A stretch of DNA of 36,867 bases from Bacteroidota bacterium (GTDB lineage: Bacteria > Bacteroidota > Bacteroidia > Chitinophagales > Chitinophagaceae). Positions 9,688 through 32,407 of this stretch are shown here, piece after piece. Every line of letters starts with the position of its first letter. Positions within the stretch are counted from its first letter, which is position 1. The notes under the pieces are model-generated. The model saw only the letters and a list, made by a program, of their open reading frames with translations, was not told the origin of the DNA and ran no database searches. A program made the position numbers and the translations under genes. The DNA lies in contig JANXUL010000028.1 in the NCBI GenBank assembly GCA_025356235.1, positions 1 through 36,867 on the forward strand, given 5' to 3'.

Positions 9688-10485
9688 ATGAAACTGCTTA
9701 CTAATAAAACCCTGATGATTTTTCTGATCCTTATCAGTGGTTATGGGTATATAGCGAGTTGCACCCATGAATCTGTTGTTCCTCCTACAGTTGCAACATC
9801 CGGTCCAATCATTACCCGAGGCACAAACATTCAACTTCCAGGGAATATGGTGGTTGGTGATACCACACAATGGAAACTTGATAAAGCCCACTCCAATGTA
9901 TTATGGTCAACCAACTATGTTGGCGTTGCGGGGTTGCTTACGGGCAGGTTTAACCAATTTGGCATGCATGAAGTAATTGATGCTGAAATGCAGAATTATC
10001 TTACTGCCGGTCAGCCTTTAAAGGATACCTCCTGGGCATTTAACGAAGCAGATCCCACCAAAACATATTTTAACGGATACGTTCAGGTCAATCAATCCAA
10101 TACAGGAGAACCAGGCAGGGATGGCGGATGTAATGTAAGTGGTTTGGGTACGGTGCCTATTGTAACTGGTACACAAAACCTAACCCTTACCAATATTGCC
10201 AGGATAAAAACAACATCTGTAAAATTTGACCCGCTTAGCAATGATTATATCGTAACACTAAACTTTACCTGGAAGGGTGGTTTAGCTGCACCCCTTACCC
10301 AATCTATTGTTGGCCGCTTAAAGTATGTGTCAAAGGCTAGAGTTCAAATTGGCACTGGTGCTGCGTATTCTGTTTTTGGCTTACAATTAAAGTTCCAGTT
10401 TAACTGCAGGGATTTTGGTGTTGTGAGCACAAGTATTGCGGATAAAGTAGATATCGAATGTAACATGAACTTCAATAATAAATAA
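9688..10485 (+). CDS. YceI-like lipoprotein
   Basis: 265 aa. A lipoprotein signal peptide ends in the lipobox I-A-S-C (Cys about 25). After a Pro/Thr-rich linker, 'WKLDKAHSNVLWSTNYVGVAGLLTGRF' matches the opening of the YceI fold (W-x-L/I-D-x-x-H-S-x-V-x-F ... G-x-F). YceI proteins are lipocalin-like barrels that bind isoprenoid or other hydrophobic molecules in the periplasm. It is longer than the usual ~170-190 aa YceI core, with an insertion holding Cys residues ('GGCNVSG') and a late 'FNCRDFG'. It is the first gene of a tight operon (16-bp and 22-bp gaps) with a cytochrome lipoprotein and a DUF5777 barrel, which suggests a role at the outer membrane in an electron- or cofactor-linked process. 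Confidence 0.75.
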   Translation: MKLLTNKTLMIFLILISGYGYIASCTHESVVPPTVATSGPIITRGTNIQLPGNMVVGDTTQWKLDKAHSNVLWSTNYVGVAGLLTGRFNQFGMHEVIDAEMQNYLTAGQPLKDTSWAFNEADPTKTYFNGYVQVNQSNTGEPGRDGGCNVSGLGTVPIVTGTQNLTLTNIARIKTTSVKFDPLSNDYIVTLNFTWKGGLAAPLTQSIVGRLKYVSKARVQIGTGAAYSVFGLQLKFQFNCRDFGVVSTSIADKVDIECNMNFNNK

Positions 10486-10501
10486 CCCCAAACGAATTGT
10501 T

Positions 10502-10885
10502 ATGAAAAAAATGATGATATATATCGGTATTTTTTTTACGGTAGCTGTTGGGTTAACCGGTTGTTACCATGATGTTATTTTACCGGATACTGTTGTTGAT
10601 CCCGATGGACCACCGCAGGCGGTAAGTTTTAAAACAGATATTGCCCCTATGGTGAATACCAAATGCGCCTTATCCGGCTGTCATGTTTCGGGTGCACACA
10701 AACCTTTTATGGCAAGCGGGATAGCCTATCAGGAAATTGCTAACGGCGGTTTTGTGAATACGGTTATTCCCAAAGAAAGTATTATATATAAAATGATAAA
10801 CGGTGAAATGCAACAATATATTCCTTCGGCAAGTGACAGGCAAAAAATATATGATTGGATTAGAAATGGTGCGCCGAATAATTAA
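10502..10885 (+). CDS. c-type cytochrome-like lipoprotein with CX4CH haem motif
   Basis: 127 aa. The signal peptide has lipobox L-T-G-C (Cys about 21). The mature part 'VSFKTDIAPMVNTKCALSGCHVSG' contains C-A-L-S-G-C-H, a CX4CH variant of the CXXCH haem-attachment site, then an axial-ligand candidate Met in 'YKMINGEMQQYIP' and the closing helix 'DRQKIYDWIRNGAPNN'. This order is that of small monohaem cytochromes of Bacteroidetes (cytochrome c domain, Planctomycete-type variants). It is likely anchored in the outer membrane and facing the periplasm. Whether CX4CH is actually haemylated cannot be told from the sequence. It lies between the YceI-like and DUF5777 genes in one operon. Confidence 0.75.
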   Translation: MKKMMIYIGIFFTVAVGLTGCYHDVILPDTVVDPDGPPQAVSFKTDIAPMVNTKCALSGCHVSGAHKPFMASGIAYQEIANGGFVNTVIPKESIIYKMINGEMQQYIPSASDRQKIYDWIRNGAPNN

Positions 10886-10907
10886 GTCATTGTAAAAAAT
10901 CATTAAA

Positions 10908-11882
10908 ATGAAACTAAAAACATATATACCTGTTCGCCGGTTTATTTTACCGGCATACGTTGTCTGTTGCCTTCTTTTTTCGCAGACTAAATTATCTGCA
11001 CAGGATAGCACAGTTGCTGCTAAAGAAATAGTGACACCTACCAAGGCAAAGCCGGTAAAAAATACTTTTCAGAGTGTATGGATTATTGATAACCAAACGG
11101 TAATGGTATCAAAAAAAGGAACGTTTGAAATGGATATCATGCACCGGTTTGGAACAGTGAATAAAGGATATGATGATTTCTGGGGGTTTTTCGCCCCATC
11201 CAATATACGGTTGGGTGTAAGTTATGCGCCAGTTAACAGACTTAATGTGGGTATTGGTATAACAAAAAGCAATATGCTTTGGGATGTAAGTGCCAAATAT
11301 GCCATTATCGCACAAACAAAAGGTAAATACCCGGTGAGTATTACTTACTATGGAAATATAGGGTATGATACAAGGAAAGATCCGGATCATAGCCTTTTTA
11401 AATACCAATCGCAAAGAGTAATTTCTTTCAACCAATTGATCATAGCCAGGAAAATAACAGATAAATTTTCTTTACAGGTTGCCCCAAGTATCTCTCATCA
11501 GAATTCAGTGAATGGCTTTTATACCAAAAACGACAGCACGGGAAAGGTAACATTCAAAGAAATGAATTTTGATCACTTTGCGGTTGCTTTATCCGGAAGG
11601 TACAGATGGACCAATGTGACTTCTATAATTTTCAATTATGACCAGCCCATTACAAAACATAATACACATAACCCCAATCCTAATTTGTCTTTAGGTTTTG
11701 AATTCAATACAAGTGCTCACTCATTCCAATTATTCATGGGCAATTATTCGCTGCTTAGTCCGCAACGGAATAATTTGTACAATTCAAATAGCCCTTTCAA
11801 TTATACCCAAGCCGACGGTACAAAAGTGGAAGGTGGTAAGTGGGTGATCGGTTTTAATATAACCCGGTTATGGAATTGGTAG
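10908..11882 (+). CDS. DUF5777-type outer-membrane beta-barrel protein
   Basis: 324 aa. A signal peptide (about residues 1-31, ending near KLSA-Q) precedes a run of alternating-hydrophobic strands rich in aromatic residues ('GTFEMDIMHRFGTVNKGYDDFWGFFAPSN' region, 'RLGVSYAPVNRLNVGIGITKS', then ~8-10 more). It ends in an aromatic C-terminal strand (VIGFNITRLWNW), typical of outer-membrane barrels. The 'HRFG ... FWG' opening matches my memory of DUF5777. Members are often found next to c-type cytochromes and YceI-like proteins, as here, so it may provide an outer-membrane scaffold or pore for a redox partner; no activity is known. It is the last gene of the operon and is followed by a terminator. 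Confidence 0.75.
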   Translation: MKLKTYIPVRRFILPAYVVCCLLFSQTKLSAQDSTVAAKEIVTPTKAKPVKNTFQSVWIIDNQTVMVSKKGTFEMDIMHRFGTVNKGYDDFWGFFAPSNIRLGVSYAPVNRLNVGIGITKSNMLWDVSAKYAIIAQTKGKYPVSITYYGNIGYDTRKDPDHSLFKYQSQRVISFNQLIIARKITDKFSLQVAPSISHQNSVNGFYTKNDSTGKVTFKEMNFDHFAVALSGRYRWTNVTSIIFNYDQPITKHNTHNPNPNLSLGFEFNTSAHSFQLFMGNYSLLSPQRNNLYNSNSPFNYTQADGTKVEGGKWVIGFNITRLWNW

Positions 11883-14549: not shown

Positions 14550-15638
14550 TTACTGGTGAATATCTGCCGGTGGGTTGGCATTGTTTTCAAAACCAGGTGG
14601 TGCAAACCGGGAATCTTTCAGGAAAGTTGAATCTGTTAAAGTGTATAGAAAGGCAGTTAACTGGCCGATTTCGAAATTGGACAAGATTAGTTTTTTTTGC
14701 AGCAATACATCAGTCGTTGGTCCCACCACCATATTTTTCCGGTAATGTTCAAATACACTTAATAACGAAAAAAAGCGGCCATCATGTCCATACGGAAAAG
14801 TCATCGCAACATTTCGTAAACTGGGTACTTTAAATTTTAAAGAGTCATTTTTATCGCCTGTTATTTTCATCCTGCCCATATCACTTACGGAAAGATCCAG
14901 GGGGAGGCCGGTATTGCGGTAAGTGAAATCGGTAAACATGGGTTCTGCATGGCAACCCGTACATTTTTTTTGAAATATTTCGTAACCCAATTGTTCAGGT
15001 AAAATAAAACTGGCTTCACCCCGCATTACTTTATCGTATTTACTATTACTGCTAACCAATTGCAGCAGGAACTGGCTCATCGCTTTTCCGATACGCTGGT
15101 AATTAATGGTTTCATCGCCGAAAGCAGCTTTAAATAATTTCCGGTACTGGTTATCTGAACGCAGCTTACTGGTCACCGATTCCAGGGTTTCTGCCATTTC
15201 ATTTTCAGCGGTTATAGGTGCTAATGGCTGTAGGTCGAGGTGGTTAATCCCGCCATCCCACATAAATTCTTTTTGCCACGCCAGATTAAATAAACCCGGC
15301 GCATTGCGGGTAGTTAATGCATTATTAAAGCCATGGCTAAGGTTATGGTCATAGGTATTGAAAGCGCCGAATTGCTGATGGCAGCTACCGCAAGAAAAAT
15401 TACCATCTTTACTAAGACGGCTATCATAAAATAATTGCTTTCCTAATACAAAGCCTTCTTCTGTCAAAGGATTTTTTGAAAAATCGTAAACAGGTTGAGG
15501 CCAGCCGGGCGGTATTATAAACTTAACAGGCCTGGGTTTAAAATAACGGTTGTCAACAGTTATCCATCCGGTTGCTATAAGTACAATGACAAACATTACC
15601 CATGTATTTTTAGCCAATTTCATATCAGTGTGCTGCAT
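14550..15638 (-). CDS. MbnH-like di-haem cytochrome c peroxidase family enzyme (MauG/CCP superfamily)
   Basis: 362 aa. One N-terminal hydrophobic segment acts as signal or anchor. Two haem sites are present: CGSCH (about 83-87) and CTGCH (about 226-230). Family landmarks 'LGKQLFYDSRLSKDGNFSCGSCH', 'RNAPGLFNLAWQKEFMWDGG' and 'FKVPSLRNVAMTFPYGHDGRF' are all there. The gene overlaps mbnP by 14 bp if it starts at 15638; an alternative ATG at 15623 (MKLAKNTW) lies one base after the mbnP stop and puts the basic n-region at the terminus. Pairing with MbnP points to MbnH, which in methanotrophs oxidises a Trp of MbnP, rather than to a plain H2O2-detoxifying peroxidase. That assignment is inference from context. 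Confidence 0.85.
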   Translation of the reverse strand: MQHTDMKLAKNTWVMFVIVLIATGWITVDNRYFKPRPVKFIIPPGWPQPVYDFSKNPLTEEGFVLGKQLFYDSRLSKDGNFSCGSCHQQFGAFNTYDHNLSHGFNNALTTRNAPGLFNLAWQKEFMWDGGINHLDLQPLAPITAENEMAETLESVTSKLRSDNQYRKLFKAAFGDETINYQRIGKAMSQFLLQLVSSNSKYDKVMRGEASFILPEQLGYEIFQKKCTGCHAEPMFTDFTYRNTGLPLDLSVSDMGRMKITGDKNDSLKFKVPSLRNVAMTFPYGHDGRFFSLLSVFEHYRKNMVVGPTTDVLLQKKLILSNFEIGQLTAFLYTLTDSTFLKDSRFAPPGFENNANPPADIHQ

Positions 15639-16365
15639 TTATGGAGAACATCGTGCTGTAATTATCTGCAATCCGCATGGCCAATGCACTGGGACTATGA
15701 CAAACAGGTGTTTCAGTTATTTTCAGTTCCGACTTACCCTTAAACCATTGGTTGATCTCTGCCGTGATTGTTATTTGATTTGCCCTTACCTCTTTCTCCG
15801 GAAGTTCTAATGAAATCATCCTTGTTGTATTCATACCATTTTTAAAACCACCAATATGATAAGTAAAATAATGCCCCTGCGCCGCTGATACTTCAGAAGT
15901 GCCTTCAAGTTTGGCCATAATATAGCCACTATTCCAGGTCCAGAACATACCGTTTAAAGGATCCAAAGCACCTGTTTGTACACCGGAAACATTTTTGATA
16001 CTATCTACGCCAAGTAAAAAACAAATGCTCTTGATGGATGCACCGGGAATGGTTAATATAATGTTTTTAGATAAGGGATCCGCCTCATCTATCAGGAAAT
16101 ATTGGGCAGGTAATTTTGTGATTTGTCCATTATTGTCTGTTACAGAAAAATTCGACACATAATATTTAAATTTTTCAATAATGATATTTTCCCCAAGAAT
16201 ATTTTTACACGGGGTACCCAATACCAGTTTATCGCCACCCATGGTATGTTGAAAGATCAGGGCAAGCTGACGTTGCTGTATTTTGTTATCCCCGTCTCTG
16301 ATAAATCCCATACTAGTCACAGAAATCAACAGGACGCAGGTAAATATGAAAAATATCGTTTTCAT
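15625..16365 (-). CDS. MbnP-like copper-binding periplasmic protein
   Basis: 246 aa with an N-terminal signal peptide. It carries the MbnP family pattern: 'FKYYVSNFSVTDNNG', 'QYFLIDEADP', 'ICFLLGVDS', and the hallmark 'GMFWTWNSGYIMAKLEG' (about 139-155), ending 'VCHSPSALAMRIADNYSTMF'. Cys at about 53, 115 and 222, His at 40, 165, 170 and 223, and Trp at 142, 144 and 207 are candidate metal or modification sites. In methanotrophs MbnP binds copper after MbnH converts one Trp to kynurenine. Many bacteria have the pair without methanobactin. Its start overlaps the arfB stop (TAATG) and its end runs into mbnH, so the three are translationally coupled. Confidence 0.85.
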   Translation of the reverse strand: MKTIFFIFTCVLLISVTSMGFIRDGDNKIQQRQLALIFQHTMGGDKLVLGTPCKNILGENIIIEKFKYYVSNFSVTDNNGQITKLPAQYFLIDEADPLSKNIILTIPGASIKSICFLLGVDSIKNVSGVQTGALDPLNGMFWTWNSGYIMAKLEGTSEVSAAQGHYFTYHIGGFKNGMNTTRMISLELPEKEVRANQITITAEINQWFKGKSELKITETPVCHSPSALAMRIADNYSTMFSINAAH

Positions 16366-16772
16366 TAATAATCGTTTCTGTTTATTTTCTTACGCTTTTC
16401 TTTTGTGAATGTATTCCGTTTTTTGCTCTCTATCCGTTTTTCCTTTGCAGCTTTGGTGGGCTTCGTAGGGCGGCGGACTTTCTGTTTTACCAGTGCTTTT
16501 TCTATCAGTTGGTTCATTTTCCTGATCACTTCCTGTTTGTTACCCAGCTGCGACCTTTCCGTTTGTGATTTTACCAGCAGGACCCCGTCATCAGTAATTT
16601 TATTATGTAATTTTTCATTTATGAGTTGCTTTTGCTCATCAGAAAACAACTGGGATGATAATACCTGCCAGCGGCCCTCTACCATGGTTTCTACCTTGTT
16701 TACATTTTGCCCCCCTTTACCACCACTGCGGGCTGTTTGGAACAATATTTCCTGTGTAATGTCTATCTTCAT
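16365..16772 (-). CDS. arfB: Alternative ribosome-rescue factor ArfB (peptidyl-tRNA hydrolase)
   Basis: 135 aa, the usual length of ArfB/YaeJ. The release-factor-like domain begins 'ITQEILFQTARSGGKGGQNVNKVET' with the catalytic GGQ at about 20-22. A linker then leads to a long basic C-terminal tail (KVRRPTKPTKAAKEKRIESKK...KRKK), which enters the empty mRNA channel of stalled ribosomes. It hydrolyses peptidyl-tRNA on ribosomes lacking a stop codon. The stop TAA overlaps the mbnP ATG by one base. Divergent from dtd with only 35 bp between the start codons, so the two must share a compact promoter region. Confidence 0.93.
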   Translation of the reverse strand: MKIDITQEILFQTARSGGKGGQNVNKVETMVEGRWQVLSSQLFSDEQKQLINEKLHNKITDDGVLLVKSQTERSQLGNKQEVIRKMNQLIEKALVKQKVRRPTKPTKAAKEKRIESKKRNTFTKEKRKKINRNDY

Positions 16773-25548: not shown

Positions 25549-28503
25549 TTAAAGTTTGACTACTTTTTGTATGGCCTTATATTTTTGGGTATCACTGGTT
25601 ATTTGAATCACATATGTGCCGGCCGGAAAATTACTAAGCGGAATACTACCGTCCCCATAGGTTGCCTGTTTTTGGTAAACAGGTTGCCCCAATAAATTAA
25701 ATGCCTGTATGGTAATTGATTTAATGCCAATTAAACTGCCCTTGCCATACTGGTAAACACCCGTACTGATTGTTGGAAATATTTGTATAAATTTTTTGTC
25801 ATTAATAATGGCCGGTACAGCGGTTATAATAGTAGGAGTAAAATTGGGAGATCCGATAGTAGTAAAATACATACCGTTTCCATGTGTACCAATTAACAGG
25901 GTATTGTCTTCGGGACGATAATCTAAAGTAGTAACCACTGCAAAGTTCAGTACACCTGCCCCTTCGCGCGACCAGACAATCGTTCCACCGGCGCCCAGTG
26001 TTTGCTTAATACTTTGTGTAGTATAAAGTCCTACCGAAGTGCCAACATAATATTCTGTAACCGGATTATTGCTGGCATCCTTTTTTACCACAATGGCACA
26101 TGAACGAATAGAAGGAAGTGTAAGGTTGCCCTCTGCATTGGACCAGATGGGGCTGGCACTTTTGGCATTAGCGGTCCACCAGATGGATATGGTATTATAA
26201 TTCGATACCACTGCCATAATTTCATTGTCATCATTTGGGTTAACGGCAATATCCTGTACGTTACCAGACAGGCCTGGCGGAGAAATATCTGTGGGAAATG
26301 ATTGTACATCTGCATTGGCATAATCATCTAACCGGAAAATTTTGCTGTTATTGGTCCCAAAATACATGGCATGTGTTGTTTGATAAGGCCCCCAGGAAAA
26401 ATCCATGGCACGGATAGAAACACTGGTTGTATTACTTGGGTTTACTGTGTTTTCTATACCCAATAAGCGAAGCCAGCTTATACTATCCACTGTACTGGCT
26501 GAATTGGTTTTAAAAAGCCTGTTGTAATTCACATAAAACAACACTTCTGAATTGGCATTACTTAATTTGAAATTGGTAACAAAATCCCCATACCCTCCAT
26601 TGCTGTTATCGGTAAGTTCCGAAGCCTTTGGGCGTATGGAACCACCGCGATAATTCACATTATCTAAAAGCTCATCCCTGATGATTACTCCTGACTGAGC
26701 ACCAAAATACGTTAGTTGTTTTCCCCCACTGATCTTGGCGATATCAACCGATACACCATCGCCCCCGCCTAATTGAATAAAATCATTAACACCGGGCCGG
26801 GTGGCGGGCCTCGCACCAAAATTTAAAGAGGCATCACGATACCAGCTTCCGTTATCCTGCGCGCCGCCCAAAAAATTATTTCTGCCTGTTTCCGGATCAA
26901 TGGCTACAGAATAATATTGAAGCGTTTGGTAATTGGGTATAAAAGTCCAGGTTACCTGCGCGGCAGTAATATCTGCTGATACCTGTATCCCTCCATCATT
27001 ACAACAAAAGGCCCTGTTAGGATTGGTTGGATCGAAAGCAAGAAAATGCATATCCGGGTGGCTATTGGGGTAAATATTGGTTGTAAAGTTGGTAGCATAT
27101 CCACCTATCCAATTGGTTCCGGTAGTATTGGAAAAACCAGTGGTAGAGCGGTATAAATTAGTTCCCCCTAAAAGAATAGTATTAATATCATCGGGTTTTA
27201 TGGTTAAGAGCATATCATACCCGCCCTGAACTGTCAGGGGGTCGGAGCCGGTTTTATTGCCACCCGGCATATCAGGCATATTGCCCGAAAGATTAGTCCA
27301 GTTTGGTGCTCCGCTGGATACATCCAATTTAAAAAAATCCGCTTCCGGCGCAAAAGTCGGGCTTGCCTGGCTGTTACCATTTTCATACATCACGAACAGG
27401 ATATCATCATTTGATGGGGCTATCTTCATTATAATCCTGCCCCAGTTAACACTGGTGCTTGAGCTGTTGTTTACTTGCCATCCCGAAGGTACTGAAGCAA
27501 CATTGCCACCTAATAAGGTCCAACTGCCACTTCCCCCGGTAGTAGATTGCCAGACACCCCTGTCGGCCGCATTTTTCAAGTGAAATGCACAATACAATTT
27601 CGATCCGGTGCTGTTAATTACTATGTCGGTATTACCGGTAACACTGTTTCCGCTTCCCGTTCCTTTAACGATCGACCATGTATTGCCCCCATCCTGTGAG
27701 CGTTGAATACTGCTGTGACAGGCCGCAAACACATCACCATTTGCTGGGTTTACGGCTATGCGGTGAACAAAGTCAAACGGATTGTCAAATGCCGCCAATG
27801 CACCGGATTGGGTACTTGATAAAGCGATCCAGTTAAGCCCATTGTTGACAGATTTATAGATGCCGTTACCCAAATAAAAAGCGCCGGTTCCACTGGCAGA
27901 GTTGCCCAAGGTTTCTCCGGTACCGGCATACCAGGTATCCTCAAAACCGGTCCTGGTATCCTGTGCAATCGTAGTAATACTATGAATCTGCTGATCGGGT
28001 GTTACTAAAGTCCAGTTATTTCCCCCATCGCTGGAGCGCATGATTCCACCACTCACACATCCTGCTATCATTACTTTATTAGTGCCGCCATTATAACGTT
28101 TGTCGAAGGCTAATATTCTTGTTCTGCCACCAATATTGTTAGGACCGGCGGGCAGGTAAGTATTGGTGGTAGGTGTGTTAATGCCGAAAGTTCTGATTTC
28201 CATACCATTGGCAGAAATAGCTTGCTGATGGGTGCCTGCAATAGGTAAGGATTTGGCCTGTGCCATTTCTTCCCGGAAAATATTTGCGGGAATTTTGCCT
28301 GTTTTAGGATCTTTTATAAGATCATACTCATATTGAAGCCTTGCGCCAATCATCTCTGCCCTGTTTTCGGGCGTCTCATTATCTTCAGATAATTCTATCT
28401 GGTAGTCTTTTTCTTTTGCGATACGGAAACCTGTTTTCTTCCAGATAATGCCTGCAGTGATACAGACAATCAATACAAAGGAAATAATTAGCCCCTTTTT
28501 CAT
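25549..28503 (-). CDS. T9SS-secreted beta-propeller protein with Asp-box (sortilin/BNR-like) repeats
   Basis: 984 aa. N-terminal signal sequence (MKKGLIISFVLIVCITAG). Repeated Asp-box motifs S-x-D-G-G-x-x-W or variants ('SSDGGNNWTLV', 'SVNNGLNWIAL', 'SQDGGNTWSIV') indicate a beta-propeller of the sialidase/Vps10/YCF48-like type; no sialidase catalytic residues can be identified, so I do not call it an enzyme. The last ~80 residues ('ITIQAFNLLGQPVYQKQ ... FPAGTYVIQITSD ... KAIQKVVKL') are a type A T9SS sorting domain, so the protein is exported and attached to or released from the outer surface. Separated from the upstream protease gene by a strong hairpin, and followed by a small secreted protein. 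Confidence 0.88.
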   Translation of the reverse strand: MKKGLIISFVLIVCITAGIIWKKTGFRIAKEKDYQIELSEDNETPENRAEMIGARLQYEYDLIKDPKTGKIPANIFREEMAQAKSLPIAGTHQQAISANGMEIRTFGINTPTTNTYLPAGPNNIGGRTRILAFDKRYNGGTNKVMIAGCVSGGIMRSSDGGNNWTLVTPDQQIHSITTIAQDTRTGFEDTWYAGTGETLGNSASGTGAFYLGNGIYKSVNNGLNWIALSSTQSGALAAFDNPFDFVHRIAVNPANGDVFAACHSSIQRSQDGGNTWSIVKGTGSGNSVTGNTDIVINSTGSKLYCAFHLKNAADRGVWQSTTGGSGSWTLLGGNVASVPSGWQVNNSSSTSVNWGRIIMKIAPSNDDILFVMYENGNSQASPTFAPEADFFKLDVSSGAPNWTNLSGNMPDMPGGNKTGSDPLTVQGGYDMLLTIKPDDINTILLGGTNLYRSTTGFSNTTGTNWIGGYATNFTTNIYPNSHPDMHFLAFDPTNPNRAFCCNDGGIQVSADITAAQVTWTFIPNYQTLQYYSVAIDPETGRNNFLGGAQDNGSWYRDASLNFGARPATRPGVNDFIQLGGGDGVSVDIAKISGGKQLTYFGAQSGVIIRDELLDNVNYRGGSIRPKASELTDNSNGGYGDFVTNFKLSNANSEVLFYVNYNRLFKTNSASTVDSISWLRLLGIENTVNPSNTTSVSIRAMDFSWGPYQTTHAMYFGTNNSKIFRLDDYANADVQSFPTDISPPGLSGNVQDIAVNPNDDNEIMAVVSNYNTISIWWTANAKSASPIWSNAEGNLTLPSIRSCAIVVKKDASNNPVTEYYVGTSVGLYTTQSIKQTLGAGGTIVWSREGAGVLNFAVVTTLDYRPEDNTLLIGTHGNGMYFTTIGSPNFTPTIITAVPAIINDKKFIQIFPTISTGVYQYGKGSLIGIKSITIQAFNLLGQPVYQKQATYGDGSIPLSNFPAGTYVIQITSDTQKYKAIQKVVKL

Positions 28504-28547
28504 TTTCCAAAATATGTTTATTTTCCAAGATACAGAAAACCTTAATC

Positions 28548-28579
28548 AACAAAGGCAACCGGTAAAGGTTGCCTTTGTT
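28548..28579 (-). terminator. Terminator-like hairpin after the subtilisin-like protease gene
   Basis: Perfect 13-bp stem AACAAAGGCAACC / GGTTGCCTTTGTT with a 6-base loop, 18 bases past the protease stop and 44 bases before the next start. The following minus-strand sequence (GATTAAGG) has no T run, so it may be a weak terminator or an mRNA-stabilising hairpin. Confidence 0.6.
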
Positions 28580-28597
28580 AAAGATATTCAGTTAGCC

Positions 28598-31500
28598 TTA
28601 TTTCTCTATAAGTATCTTTTGCAAATACGTTTTTTTGTTGTGCTGGATTTTTAAGACATAGAACGCTGTACTCAACGGATCTACACGAATCTGTTTAGAG
28701 AACTTACCCGTGAAATTAGGGTAGCTGCTGTTATACACTCTTTGTCCCGATGAACTTAAAATATCAATAGACAGGTCTGCTTTCGTTGTTACTTCAAATG
28801 AAAGGTTGAATACACCATTGTTCGGGTTTGGTGACACTTTCAGTTTGATCTCCTGTGCAACCAGCTCAGGGATAGCAGTTACAGTGAAAGCAATTGTATT
28901 TGATGTTTTCTGGCAGCCGAATACATCCGTAACAATTACTTTGTAAGTGCCAGCTTTGGTTGGCTTATAATGGTTATTACTTGCATTATTGATTGCCGTA
29001 TCATTCAGGTACCATTGGTTTCCGCCGGCAATACTGCTAAGCAGCGAATCTGCTACCTGTGTAATTACAGGGGTTGGTGCGGTTACTGTTACCACAGGAA
29101 CCCTGTCGCTAACGCAACCAACGGTGTTGATACGCATATCATAATAGAAATAATAAAATTGTGCTTCAGTAAAACCTGCCTGGTTAACGCTATTACCTGT
29201 TATAGAAGCAATGTTGGGTATACCCATGGGATAAGTAGTGCCGGTAATTTGATTATTCCTGAAAATAGAAGCACTGTCTGTTCTGCCTGTTCCCTGGTCA
29301 CACCGTATCAGCAGGATATGGTCACCAACACTTGTAACAGGAAGGTTCAGGTAATACACAGCCCCGGTATCATTGGCAGGATTACCACCGTTACCACCGC
29401 TTACTAAGGTTGGGTTTGTAGCATAGGCATCAAGTACTGTTGAAGCAAATGTTTTAAACGTAAAACCGGTAGACGTTGAACTGAGAATATCAGCAGCTAT
29501 AATAGTAATCTTCCCGGGGTTACCAATGTAGAGTTTTGCCGTTTCTATTACGATCGGTACGGTATTATTGAACTTGACATAGTTGTTATAAAAACTATTA
29601 TAACCACCCTGCGGGAAGACTAATTTATTCAATGGCCCCAAGCTGGCCCGTGCTTCTTTAGCAACATAAAAAGTTTTATCTGAGGGTATGTTAGTGGTAC
29701 TTGTGGTAGGGCCAACTGCAAAAGGTGAGGTGGTAGAAGGAGTTGCATACCAGAAATAATTGGATGCATCCGGCGTATTTACCCTTAAAAGTGCAGAGGT
29801 TGTACAGATACCTCCAATGCCAGAAATGGTAGCTGGTTTTGCAGCGGTAATAATGGTGGCAACTAATTGGTTATTGGCAGAAAATTGATCACCTAAAAGG
29901 TTAACAGATGCCGTAAAAGTATAGGTAGTTCCGGCATTGGAAACGAATGGCGTTTGAAAAGTATAGTTTACAGTACTCAATGCGCTTATCGTACCTGGAT
30001 ATATAGCTGAAAGATTGGCAACCGTAGTTCCACCTGTACTTATGGCAACGGTTACAGGAATATTGGTTTGATCAATCGTACCGTTATTCCTGATTTTGAT
30101 GGTAACATATTGCGATGGGCTCGAACAGTCATTGTCAGCAGGGGATACCAGTTGGCTTAGCAACATATCAACCGAAGGATCAACTACCCTAACCCTATAA
30201 TCCTGCGTTTCGCCTTTTCCATAAGGGCCACATGGAAGAATATCAGAAGCTGTACTTGTTTCCTGTACGATAATTCTCATCAGGCAATTGGCACCCACAA
30301 TTAAAGAACCTGGGGTGGTAATGGTAAGCGTTGTAGAACTTGCCGCGGCGGTAATAAGAGGGCTGGTTGCTGCCAGCTCGCCCGCATCAAATATACCGTT
30401 GGTATTGTAATCAATAAATACTTTTACGATTCTTGGATTGGATGTTGCATCCGCCGTACCCACTTTTATAAAAATAGGTGTGGACTGCGAAGGTTCAATA
30501 TTTGCTATCAGGTTGGTATTGTTGGTATAGGTTTTAGAACCGGCTGTATTTCCTTTTTGGATGGTTTTAAAACTCACACTATCTATCCTGGCACCGCCGC
30601 CACCTGATGCAGATGCACAATAGGCGGTACCGCCCACCCCACTTACCAATAAAGAATAAGCCTGTAAACCTCTTGCCAACGTTCCTTTGTGGGTAACGGT
30701 AATTGTATAGGTTTGCCCCGGGATGGTACTGTCTATCAATTCTATTTTTTCTACGTTGTCGGTTACATTATCTCCCGGAACAGCTGGGGATTGAGGATTG
30801 TTTACATCGAGTGTCCATGGCAAATAAGTCCTTAATGAGGAACCGCTTCCGCTGGTAATCCTGATATCAAGATCGTGTACTAATTTCTTGGCCCGGCCGT
30901 TTAAAGTATTTAATTGATCAACACTTCCTTTTGGGTCTGTCCAGCTAATGGTTGCCGATAAAGGTTGTTTACCGGAAGCGACAACGGTGGTGCTAAATGT
31001 TTCTCCGTTATTTAACACCTTTTCATACAAGAGGTGGGCACTGGTTGCTGCATTGTTCGATGGAACGGCAGCAGTTATAACGGCAGCGGCTTTTTCAACG
31101 TTTAATAATCCCCATCCAAACTGGTAATCAGGGCCTGGAAAAGATCCTGCTTCATTTGCGGTATGAATTGCAAGACCTTTAATGGTGGCAGAACGCAAAA
31201 AAGCACCTGCTTTAAGTTTCGAATAATATTCCTGCAATAAAAACAATGAGCCTGCCGCATTCGGAGAAGACATTGAAGTGCCATTAAAACTGGCATAACT
31301 GGTGTTGGAAGTATTAACAGGGGATAATACATTTACCCCATCAGCCACAATATCCGGTTTAATCCGGCCGTCATCTGTAGGGCCCCAGCTACTGAAATAA
31401 CTCATCACCACATCTTCTTTCCTGCTATAACCAACAGGAATACCGTTAACAGCACCTACGGTTAAAATATTTTTTGCGCCATTAATGGTGGGGATACAGT

Positions 31501-32407
31501 CATAACTATCGTTAGAACTTATATCTGCAGGCCGGTTGCCTGCTGAAATCATTGTACCACTGGAATTTAAACGGAAATAGGGGTCACCAATCGTAGGCCC
31601 GGTCTCACCACGGTTGTTTCCTGCAGAAAATACCATCAGGTAATTAGGGGCATTGTACGCGAGGGAATCCAGTGTTTGTGATTCATCACTATAAAACCCG
31701 AATTTATAATCTTCTGTTGAAGTGGGCAGGCCCCAGAATTCCCAACGGGACTCAGTGTCGTTATAAGACCAGCCTGCCGGAAATCCATAAGAGTGATTGG
31801 AGATAAGGAGATTGGGTGATTCAGTAAACATTTCTGCCAGGCGGTTTTGGGTATCATAAGAAACAAGGCTTTGTACCCCAAATGCCATTCCTTTTGCGGC
31901 AGGGTTTACGCCAGACGCAATCAGTGTTCCGGCAACGTGCGTAGCATGGTCGCCACTCGCAGCCGGGTTATCTTTTTGATTGATACGATTAATCAGCTCT
32001 ACGTGTGTCTTAAGCGGAAAAGCGTTTCCTGCCTCCCAAAGACCGATCTTATCTTTCATGTTTGCAGAACTGCCCGAGAGGTTTAAACCCGAAGCCCCAC
32101 CCGGCCACAACTGGTTAGCCCTGGTAGTAGCCGCTGCAATCGCATTGGAATGTGAAACGATATACATGGGCAAATCCATCTTATCCACACCATCAAGTAT
32201 GGCTATTTTCCCGTTCTTTCCTTTAATGGTGAGGGGCCAGCCTCTTTGCTTAGCTAAAGTAAGTGCCCGGGCATAGCTTGCATCGCTTGATATCTTATAA
32301 CCTATCGCTGCCTGATTTAATATCCTGTTATTGGTTTCTAACTGGGCATAAACAATCGAACAACATCCGCAAATCCATACAAAAGACAAGACAATTTTTT
32401 TCATCAT
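28598..32407 (-). CDS. T9SS-secreted S8 family (subtilisin-like) serine peptidase, multidomain
   Basis: 1269 aa. Signal peptide (residues ~1-21), then an S8 domain (about 115-440): catalytic His in 'DHATHVAGT' (about 154), oxyanion Asn in 'FSAGNNRG' (about 264) and Ser in 'FNGTSMSSPNAAG' (about 378). The catalytic Asp position reads 'IGLWEAG' with Glu at about 125 (subtilisin V-I-D-S-G). A P-domain-like jelly roll follows (about 455-595), then a GEVED domain ('IFIKVGTADATSN ... DYNTNGIFDAGEL ... GETQDYRV'), a CARDB-like segment ('IKIRNNGTIDQTNIPVTV'), further Ig-like parts, and a type A T9SS sorting domain at the C-terminus ('SPNPNNGVFNLSF ... LQKILIEK'). A secreted protease for external protein or host/prey material. 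Its promoter is not obvious. Confidence 0.92.
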   Translation of the reverse strand: MMKKIVLSFVWICGCCSIVYAQLETNNRILNQAAIGYKISSDASYARALTLAKQRGWPLTIKGKNGKIAILDGVDKMDLPMYIVSHSNAIAAATTRANQLWPGGASGLNLSGSSANMKDKIGLWEAGNAFPLKTHVELINRINQKDNPAASGDHATHVAGTLIASGVNPAAKGMAFGVQSLVSYDTQNRLAEMFTESPNLLISNHSYGFPAGWSYNDTESRWEFWGLPTSTEDYKFGFYSDESQTLDSLAYNAPNYLMVFSAGNNRGETGPTIGDPYFRLNSSGTMISAGNRPADISSNDSYDCIPTINGAKNILTVGAVNGIPVGYSRKEDVVMSYFSSWGPTDDGRIKPDIVADGVNVLSPVNTSNTSYASFNGTSMSSPNAAGSLFLLQEYYSKLKAGAFLRSATIKGLAIHTANEAGSFPGPDYQFGWGLLNVEKAAAVITAAVPSNNAATSAHLLYEKVLNNGETFSTTVVASGKQPLSATISWTDPKGSVDQLNTLNGRAKKLVHDLDIRITSGSGSSLRTYLPWTLDVNNPQSPAVPGDNVTDNVEKIELIDSTIPGQTYTITVTHKGTLARGLQAYSLLVSGVGGTAYCASASGGGGARIDSVSFKTIQKGNTAGSKTYTNNTNLIANIEPSQSTPIFIKVGTADATSNPRIVKVFIDYNTNGIFDAGELAATSPLITAAASSTTLTITTPGSLIVGANCLMRIIVQETSTASDILPCGPYGKGETQDYRVRVVDPSVDMLLSQLVSPADNDCSSPSQYVTIKIRNNGTIDQTNIPVTVAISTGGTTVANLSAIYPGTISALSTVNYTFQTPFVSNAGTTYTFTASVNLLGDQFSANNQLVATIITAAKPATISGIGGICTTSALLRVNTPDASNYFWYATPSTTSPFAVGPTTSTTNIPSDKTFYVAKEARASLGPLNKLVFPQGGYNSFYNNYVKFNNTVPIVIETAKLYIGNPGKITIIAADILSSTSTGFTFKTFASTVLDAYATNPTLVSGGNGGNPANDTGAVYYLNLPVTSVGDHILLIRCDQGTGRTDSASIFRNNQITGTTYPMGIPNIASITGNSVNQAGFTEAQFYYFYYDMRINTVGCVSDRVPVVTVTAPTPVITQVADSLLSSIAGGNQWYLNDTAINNASNNHYKPTKAGTYKVIVTDVFGCQKTSNTIAFTVTAIPELVAQEIKLKVSPNPNNGVFNLSFEVTTKADLSIDILSSSGQRVYNSSYPNFTGKFSKQIRVDPLSTAFYVLKIQHNKKTYLQKILIEK

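Follow-up and report, generated by a model that had tools for sequence, protein, structure and literature searches.

The window analysed here is the whole of a 36,867-nt stretch of contig JANXUL010000028.1 from a Bacteroidota bacterium of the Chitinophagaceae (GCA_025356235.1), and it carries three neighbouring minus-strand open reading frames, arranged head to tail, at the positions given in the initial annotation. The first, arfB (16365-16772), encodes an alternative ribosome-rescue peptidyl-tRNA hydrolase that features a GGQ motif and scores 115 bits against NF006718 (cut-off 100). The second, mbnP (15625-16365), encodes a 246-residue putative copper-binding protein of the MbnP family (PF20243) with an N-terminal signal-like helix, and the third, an mbnH-like gene (14550-15638, with a probable start at 15623), encodes a di-heme enzyme of the MauG/CCP superfamily (PF03150). 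The mbnP start codon lies within the arfB stop codon, as had been described, in a TAATG string (minus strand 16367-16363) in which one base is common to both. The 14-bp overlap that had been described between mbnP and mbnH holds for the ATG at 15638 alone and probably reflects a wrongly assigned start codon. A second ATG, at 15623, which corresponds to Met6, lies one base beyond the mbnP stop codon (TGA-T-ATG), and aligned mbnH homologues have Met at this position in 85% of cases versus 26% at Met1; the start is therefore more likely to be at 15623, and the real junction is probably a one-base gap. MbnH residues are numbered here from the ATG at 15638.

No copper gene adjoins the mbnP-mbnH pair within the window. 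A sigma-70 promoter scan found 7 sites, compared with 7.2 in shuffled sequences; Bacteroidota promoters are of another type. A phage or plasmid origin was considered and rejected, as there is no phage match and the only plasmid matches are two distant ones to Deinococcus. The window also features a plus-strand run of three genes at 9688-11882 that encode a YceI-like protein, a 127-residue lipoprotein with a CX4CH heme-like motif and a weak LIC11213 match, and a DUF5777 beta-barrel protein, which is possibly a separate redox/outer-membrane unit. On the minus strand, 25549-32407 encodes a pair of large proteins that carry type 9 secretion sorting tails, one of which falls under the Pfam cut-off; the second protein is a subtilase-family protease of 1269 residues.

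The window MbnP matches PF20243 with an E-value of 6.9e-50 and 170 bits in a Pfam profile search (gathering cut-off 27). Methylocystis MbnPs that adjoin methanobactin genes score lower than the window protein, at 90 and 100 bits, and thus the Pfam family already takes in the Chitinophagaceae branch. The score against the NCBIfam equivalog TIGR04052 is 40.6 bits, which is under the cut-off of 140. An AlphaFold2 model calculated with 74 sequences has a mean pLDDT of 92.5, and its sole significant PDB match in Foldseek is 7L6G (E 4.8e-11, probability 1.00, TM 0.62), the MbnP of Methylosinus trichosporium OB3b. At the sequence level, neither the window MbnP nor a 41-member profile retrieved an MbnP structure from the PDB; the sequence bridge between the window protein and 7L6G is the MbnP of Methylocystis parvus. 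The fold is established by the model comparison, and the identities that had been assigned to MbnP and to the MbnH-like enzyme are upheld by profile, fold, and residue evidence.

The residues of note in MbnP are the WxW motif formed by W142 and W144, M140 ahead of it, H170, and the C222-H223 pair. The codon of W142, the first Trp of the motif and the predicted kynurenine site, is located at 15940-15942, that of the candidate copper ligand H170 at 15856-15858, and those of C222-H223 at 15697-15702, all on the minus strand. Three sets of MbnPs were aligned: 81 clade members, 18 further loci drawn across Bacteroidota, and six reference proteins from Methylosinus, Methylocystis (two), Trichormus, Pseudoalteromonas, and Deinococcus. 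The motif is conserved throughout: M140, W142, and W144 show no substitution in any of the 81 clade members or of the 18 other Bacteroidota loci, both Trps are also kept in all six references, and the GMFWTW string of the window aligns with GMAWNW in OB3b MbnP. H170 is His in 77/81 clade members, 18/18 other Bacteroidota loci, and 6/6 references, and it is replaced by Asp in four clade members, among them L080 and L089, the nearest relatives. The initial annotation had proposed W142, W144, and W207 as substrates, and all three are present; W142 and W144 are the likely targets, while W207 is a clade feature and was set aside as a modification site because the six reference MbnPs all have Leu or Val in its place.

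Position 223 is the point at which the window protein departs from the OB3b type. This position aligns with the Met of a conserved Cys-Met in OB3b-type MbnP, which makes C222-H223 a candidate copper-ligand position, and in the window it is His. Among the 81 clade members, 59 have His at this position, 11 have Thr, 10 have Met, and one has Asn, whereas Met is found in 5/6 references and 15/18 other Bacteroidota loci. Residue 222 is Cys in all 12 clade members that have Thr or Asn at 223, and residue 223 is His or Met in all 20 that lack Cys222 (Fisher p 0.03, uncorrected for ancestry). The 7L6G record names a four-Cys motif that is absent from the window protein, and in the alignment C222 alone coincides with an OB3b MbnP Cys. 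OB3b MbnP has Met at the positions of both residue 140 and residue 223 of the window, which gives two candidate ligand positions. DSSP assigns two isolated two-residue strands in the MbnP model, 141-142 and 221-222, and these strands may pair, which would set residue 223 beside the WxW strand. Manesis and co-workers are said to have found in 2021 that the first WxW Trp of OB3b MbnP is converted to kynurenine and that a His and a Met coordinate Cu(I). Judged from the alignments, the candidate second copper ligand of MbnP is changed from Met to His in the window protein. The alignment with characterised MbnPs, which had been suggested as a check, finds the WxW Trps and one His conserved, with His at 223 in the window versus Met in OB3b, and does not refute the kynurenine reading. 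At four loci (L094, L112, L128, and L142) the WxW motif of MbnP is intact though no MbnH adjoins, and the enzyme for these proteins may act from another site in the genome.

The MbnH-like product matches the CCP_MauG family (PF03150) with an E-value of 2.6e-50. Among NCBIfam models it matches TIGR04039 (MbnH) best, at 190.6 bits, which is under the cut-off of 362.85, and its best PDB match by both sequence and fold is 6E1C, OB3b MbnH, a MauG-like protein tied to copper homeostasis. The pLDDT of the enzyme model is 83.4. The two CxxCH heme motifs, at 83-87 and 226-230, are invariant in 74/74 clade MbnHs (C83/C86/H87 and C226/C229/H230). The axial Y299 is Tyr in 69/74 and aligns with the MbnH Tyr and with the Met of the Shewanella CCP 3o5c. 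Q137, P141, and E147 are spaced like Q103/P107/E113 of MauG, which form a conserved distal pocket (PMC6405878). The inter-heme Trp, W127, occupies the position of Trp93 in MauG and precedes the distal Gln by ten residues in both proteins; it is missing in 28/74 clade MbnHs, where Ala, His, Leu, Gln, or Tyr is found (e.g. L092, L095, L109, and L121). BthA has Ser at the Trp93 place and still forms bis-Fe(IV). A covariation between MbnP residue 223 and MbnH residue 126 (Fisher p 2e-11) was rejected as evidence of a contact because the tree holds only four independent pairs (p 0.5). In the gene tables of two plasmids (L074 and L078) the di-heme enzyme of the MbnH family goes under the name 'methanobactin export MATE transporter MbnM', which is apparently an annotation error.

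The 3.55-Mb genome contains one MbnP and two CCP_MauG genes. The second CCP_MauG enzyme (contig C214, locus L054, 1264-2343) has no adjoining mbnP; its C-terminal loop is shortened, and Asn stands where the axial Tyr or Met would be. MbnP is found in 174/249 genomes of Chitinophagaceae and in 78/297 genomes across Bacteroidota. The pairing is near-constant, with mbnH directly 3' of mbnP in 75/80 named loci and accompanying mbnP in 19/19 phylum-wide loci examined. The initial annotation had seen no mbnA, mbnB, or mbnC-like gene, and for mbnB this absence extends to the whole 3.55-Mb genome, which has zero TIGR04159 matches in a model search that covered mbnB alone. The pair without methanobactin is supported, and it is not novel: mbnP/mbnH pairs are documented far outside methanobactin producers (PMC3621798), MbnPH-like genes occur in copper-related operons of other bacteria (PMC9426467), and most genomes of the family carry MbnP. 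The locus is therefore a Bacteroidota, Chitinophagaceae-type MbnP/MbnH pair, a member of an already described kind.

The coupling to a ribosome-rescue gene, which had been called unexpected, is real and conserved in the family. arfB is located directly 5' of mbnP in 49/79 named loci, and since both main branches of the family tree have this linkage, with five changes, the ancestor of the sampled clade probably carried it, with several later losses. The arfB-linked loci also share their flanks, with dtd divergent upstream in 33/39 and a flippase gene next in 40/42. Co-regulation of ribosome rescue with copper or peroxide stress in a functional arfB-mbnP-mbnH operon would fit the frequency and spread of the linkage and the 1- or 4-base overlaps that are possible at 26/50 arfB-mbnP junctions (and at 33/61 mbnP-mbnH junctions), although these counts overstate the tightness of the junctions because the closest possible start codon was chosen, which biases them towards short gaps. 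Such an operon is nonetheless unlikely, as the entire dtd/arfB/mbnP/mbnH/flippase block travels as one, the arfB linkage is absent in the loci examined outside Chitinophagaceae, and mbnP-mbnH frequently sits elsewhere, as in Chitinophaga or near sprA-ruvA in other relatives. Since the block is inherited together, the arfB link is best explained by an ancestral order of genes on the chromosome that has been passed down and that possibly gives co-expression with mbnP-mbnH. In four loci (L044, L051, L056, and L057) the pair adjoins ruvA and sprA, the latter a type 9 secretion gene; the identity of both was confirmed in L044 only. The neighbours of the non-arfB copies revealed no shared copper context.

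The explanation that best accounts for the locus, and which we consider probable, is that MbnH oxidises W142 to kynurenine and that the matured MbnP binds extracytoplasmic Cu(I). MbnH would be exported and given two c-type hemes, and peroxide would then convert it into a high-valent di-heme species, which would oxidise the leading Trp of the WxW motif, W142. The matured MbnP would bind one Cu(I) outside the cytoplasm, beside the kynurenine, by means of H170 and residue 223, which is His in the window protein and Met in OB3b-type MbnP, and would be used for copper storage, delivery, or scavenging independently of methanobactin. Profile, fold, and residue evidence make the Trp-to-kynurenine chemistry that had been raised as a possibility likely, and by analogy with OB3b the window MbnP is predicted to form kynurenine and to bind copper. 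Against this explanation, neither protein comes close to its NCBIfam equivalog cut-off, the window has no copper gene beside the pair, Asp replaces H170 in 4/81 clade members, and residue 223 is Thr or Asn in 12/81. The missed MbnH cut-off would also suit an ordinary periplasmic cytochrome c peroxidase that removes H2O2, with MbnP as a mere neighbour or a structural or electron-transfer partner, and the CCPs of Nitrosomonas and Shewanella, members of the same superfamily, score nearly equal to MbnH in sequence and fold. This is improbable given that Tyr replaces the axial Met of CCPs, as in MauG and MbnH, that the pairing with MbnP is near-constant, and that the partner has an invariant WxW; the axial Tyr, the distal pocket, and the heme motifs favour MauG/MbnH chemistry over that of an ordinary peroxidase. 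It is very unlikely that MbnH makes a different Trp product on MbnP, such as a WxW cross-link or a hydroxylated Trp, for redox use and not for copper binding. Both WxW Trps are indeed invariant, MauG itself forms a Trp-Trp cofactor, and the chemistry of MbnH may vary since 28 of the 74 clade enzymes lack the inter-heme Trp; the conserved His/Met candidates, however, suit a metal site, and the closest characterised relative reportedly makes kynurenine at the first Trp.

To our knowledge, kynurenine-copper sites are proven in methanotroph proteins only. The Chitinophagaceae feature the same machinery, with motif and enzyme intact, as an ordinary pair of chromosomal genes in Bacteroidota, and therefore a general role in copper homeostasis can be tested in a cultivable host that is not a methanotroph. 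The spread of His, Met, and Thr at MbnP position 223 is a natural series for finding the residue that holds copper. Two features of the locus are less expected: the replacement of Met by His at 223, and the stability of the link to arfB. A more tentative suggestion, which we hold to be possible but rather doubtful, is that the lineage is converging on the MopE/CorA site of two His plus kynurenine by way of this replacement, often next to an unpaired Cys, in a pair that is fixed and translationally coupled behind arfB. If true, the exchange of ligands would adapt copper affinity or oxidation state to a function beyond methanotrophy.

The closest known system is the MbnP/MbnH pair of M. trichosporium OB3b (7L6G, 6E1C), which shares with the window the mbnP-mbnH order, the MbnP fold, the MxWxW motif, a conserved His after it, and a di-heme enzyme with an axial Tyr. 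The window differs in that it has no methanobactin operon, no four-Cys motif, and Cys-His where OB3b has Cys-Met at 222-223; identity to OB3b is about 37% for MbnH (aligned) and 14% for MbnP (structural). MopE/SACCP and CorA/CorB of gammaproteobacterial methanotrophs likewise pair a di-heme peroxidase-like enzyme with a Cu(I) protein, secreted or at the surface, that has kynurenine and histidines. Kynurenine at the Cu(I) sites of CorA and MopE, both paired with di-heme enzymes, has been proven crystallographically, and their two-His site resembles the one proposed for the window MbnP. The CorA site is formed by Kyn62-x-His64 and His114, whereas the window MbnP has WxW and not WxH; MbnP lacks marked sequence similarity to MopE/CorA (PMC3621798), and neither protein is among the PDB fold matches listed for the window model. 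A Deinococcus radiodurans plasmid pair (NZ_OV024759.1) also consists of MbnP and an MbnH-like gene, with MxWxW and no methanobactin genes nearby, and has Val-His at 222-223; it differs in adjoining copC/copD and has 27% identity. MauG of Paracoccus is likewise a Tyr-His ligated di-heme enzyme that oxidises Trp, but it makes tryptophan tryptophylquinone in methylamine dehydrogenase, whereas the partner of the window enzyme is MbnP.
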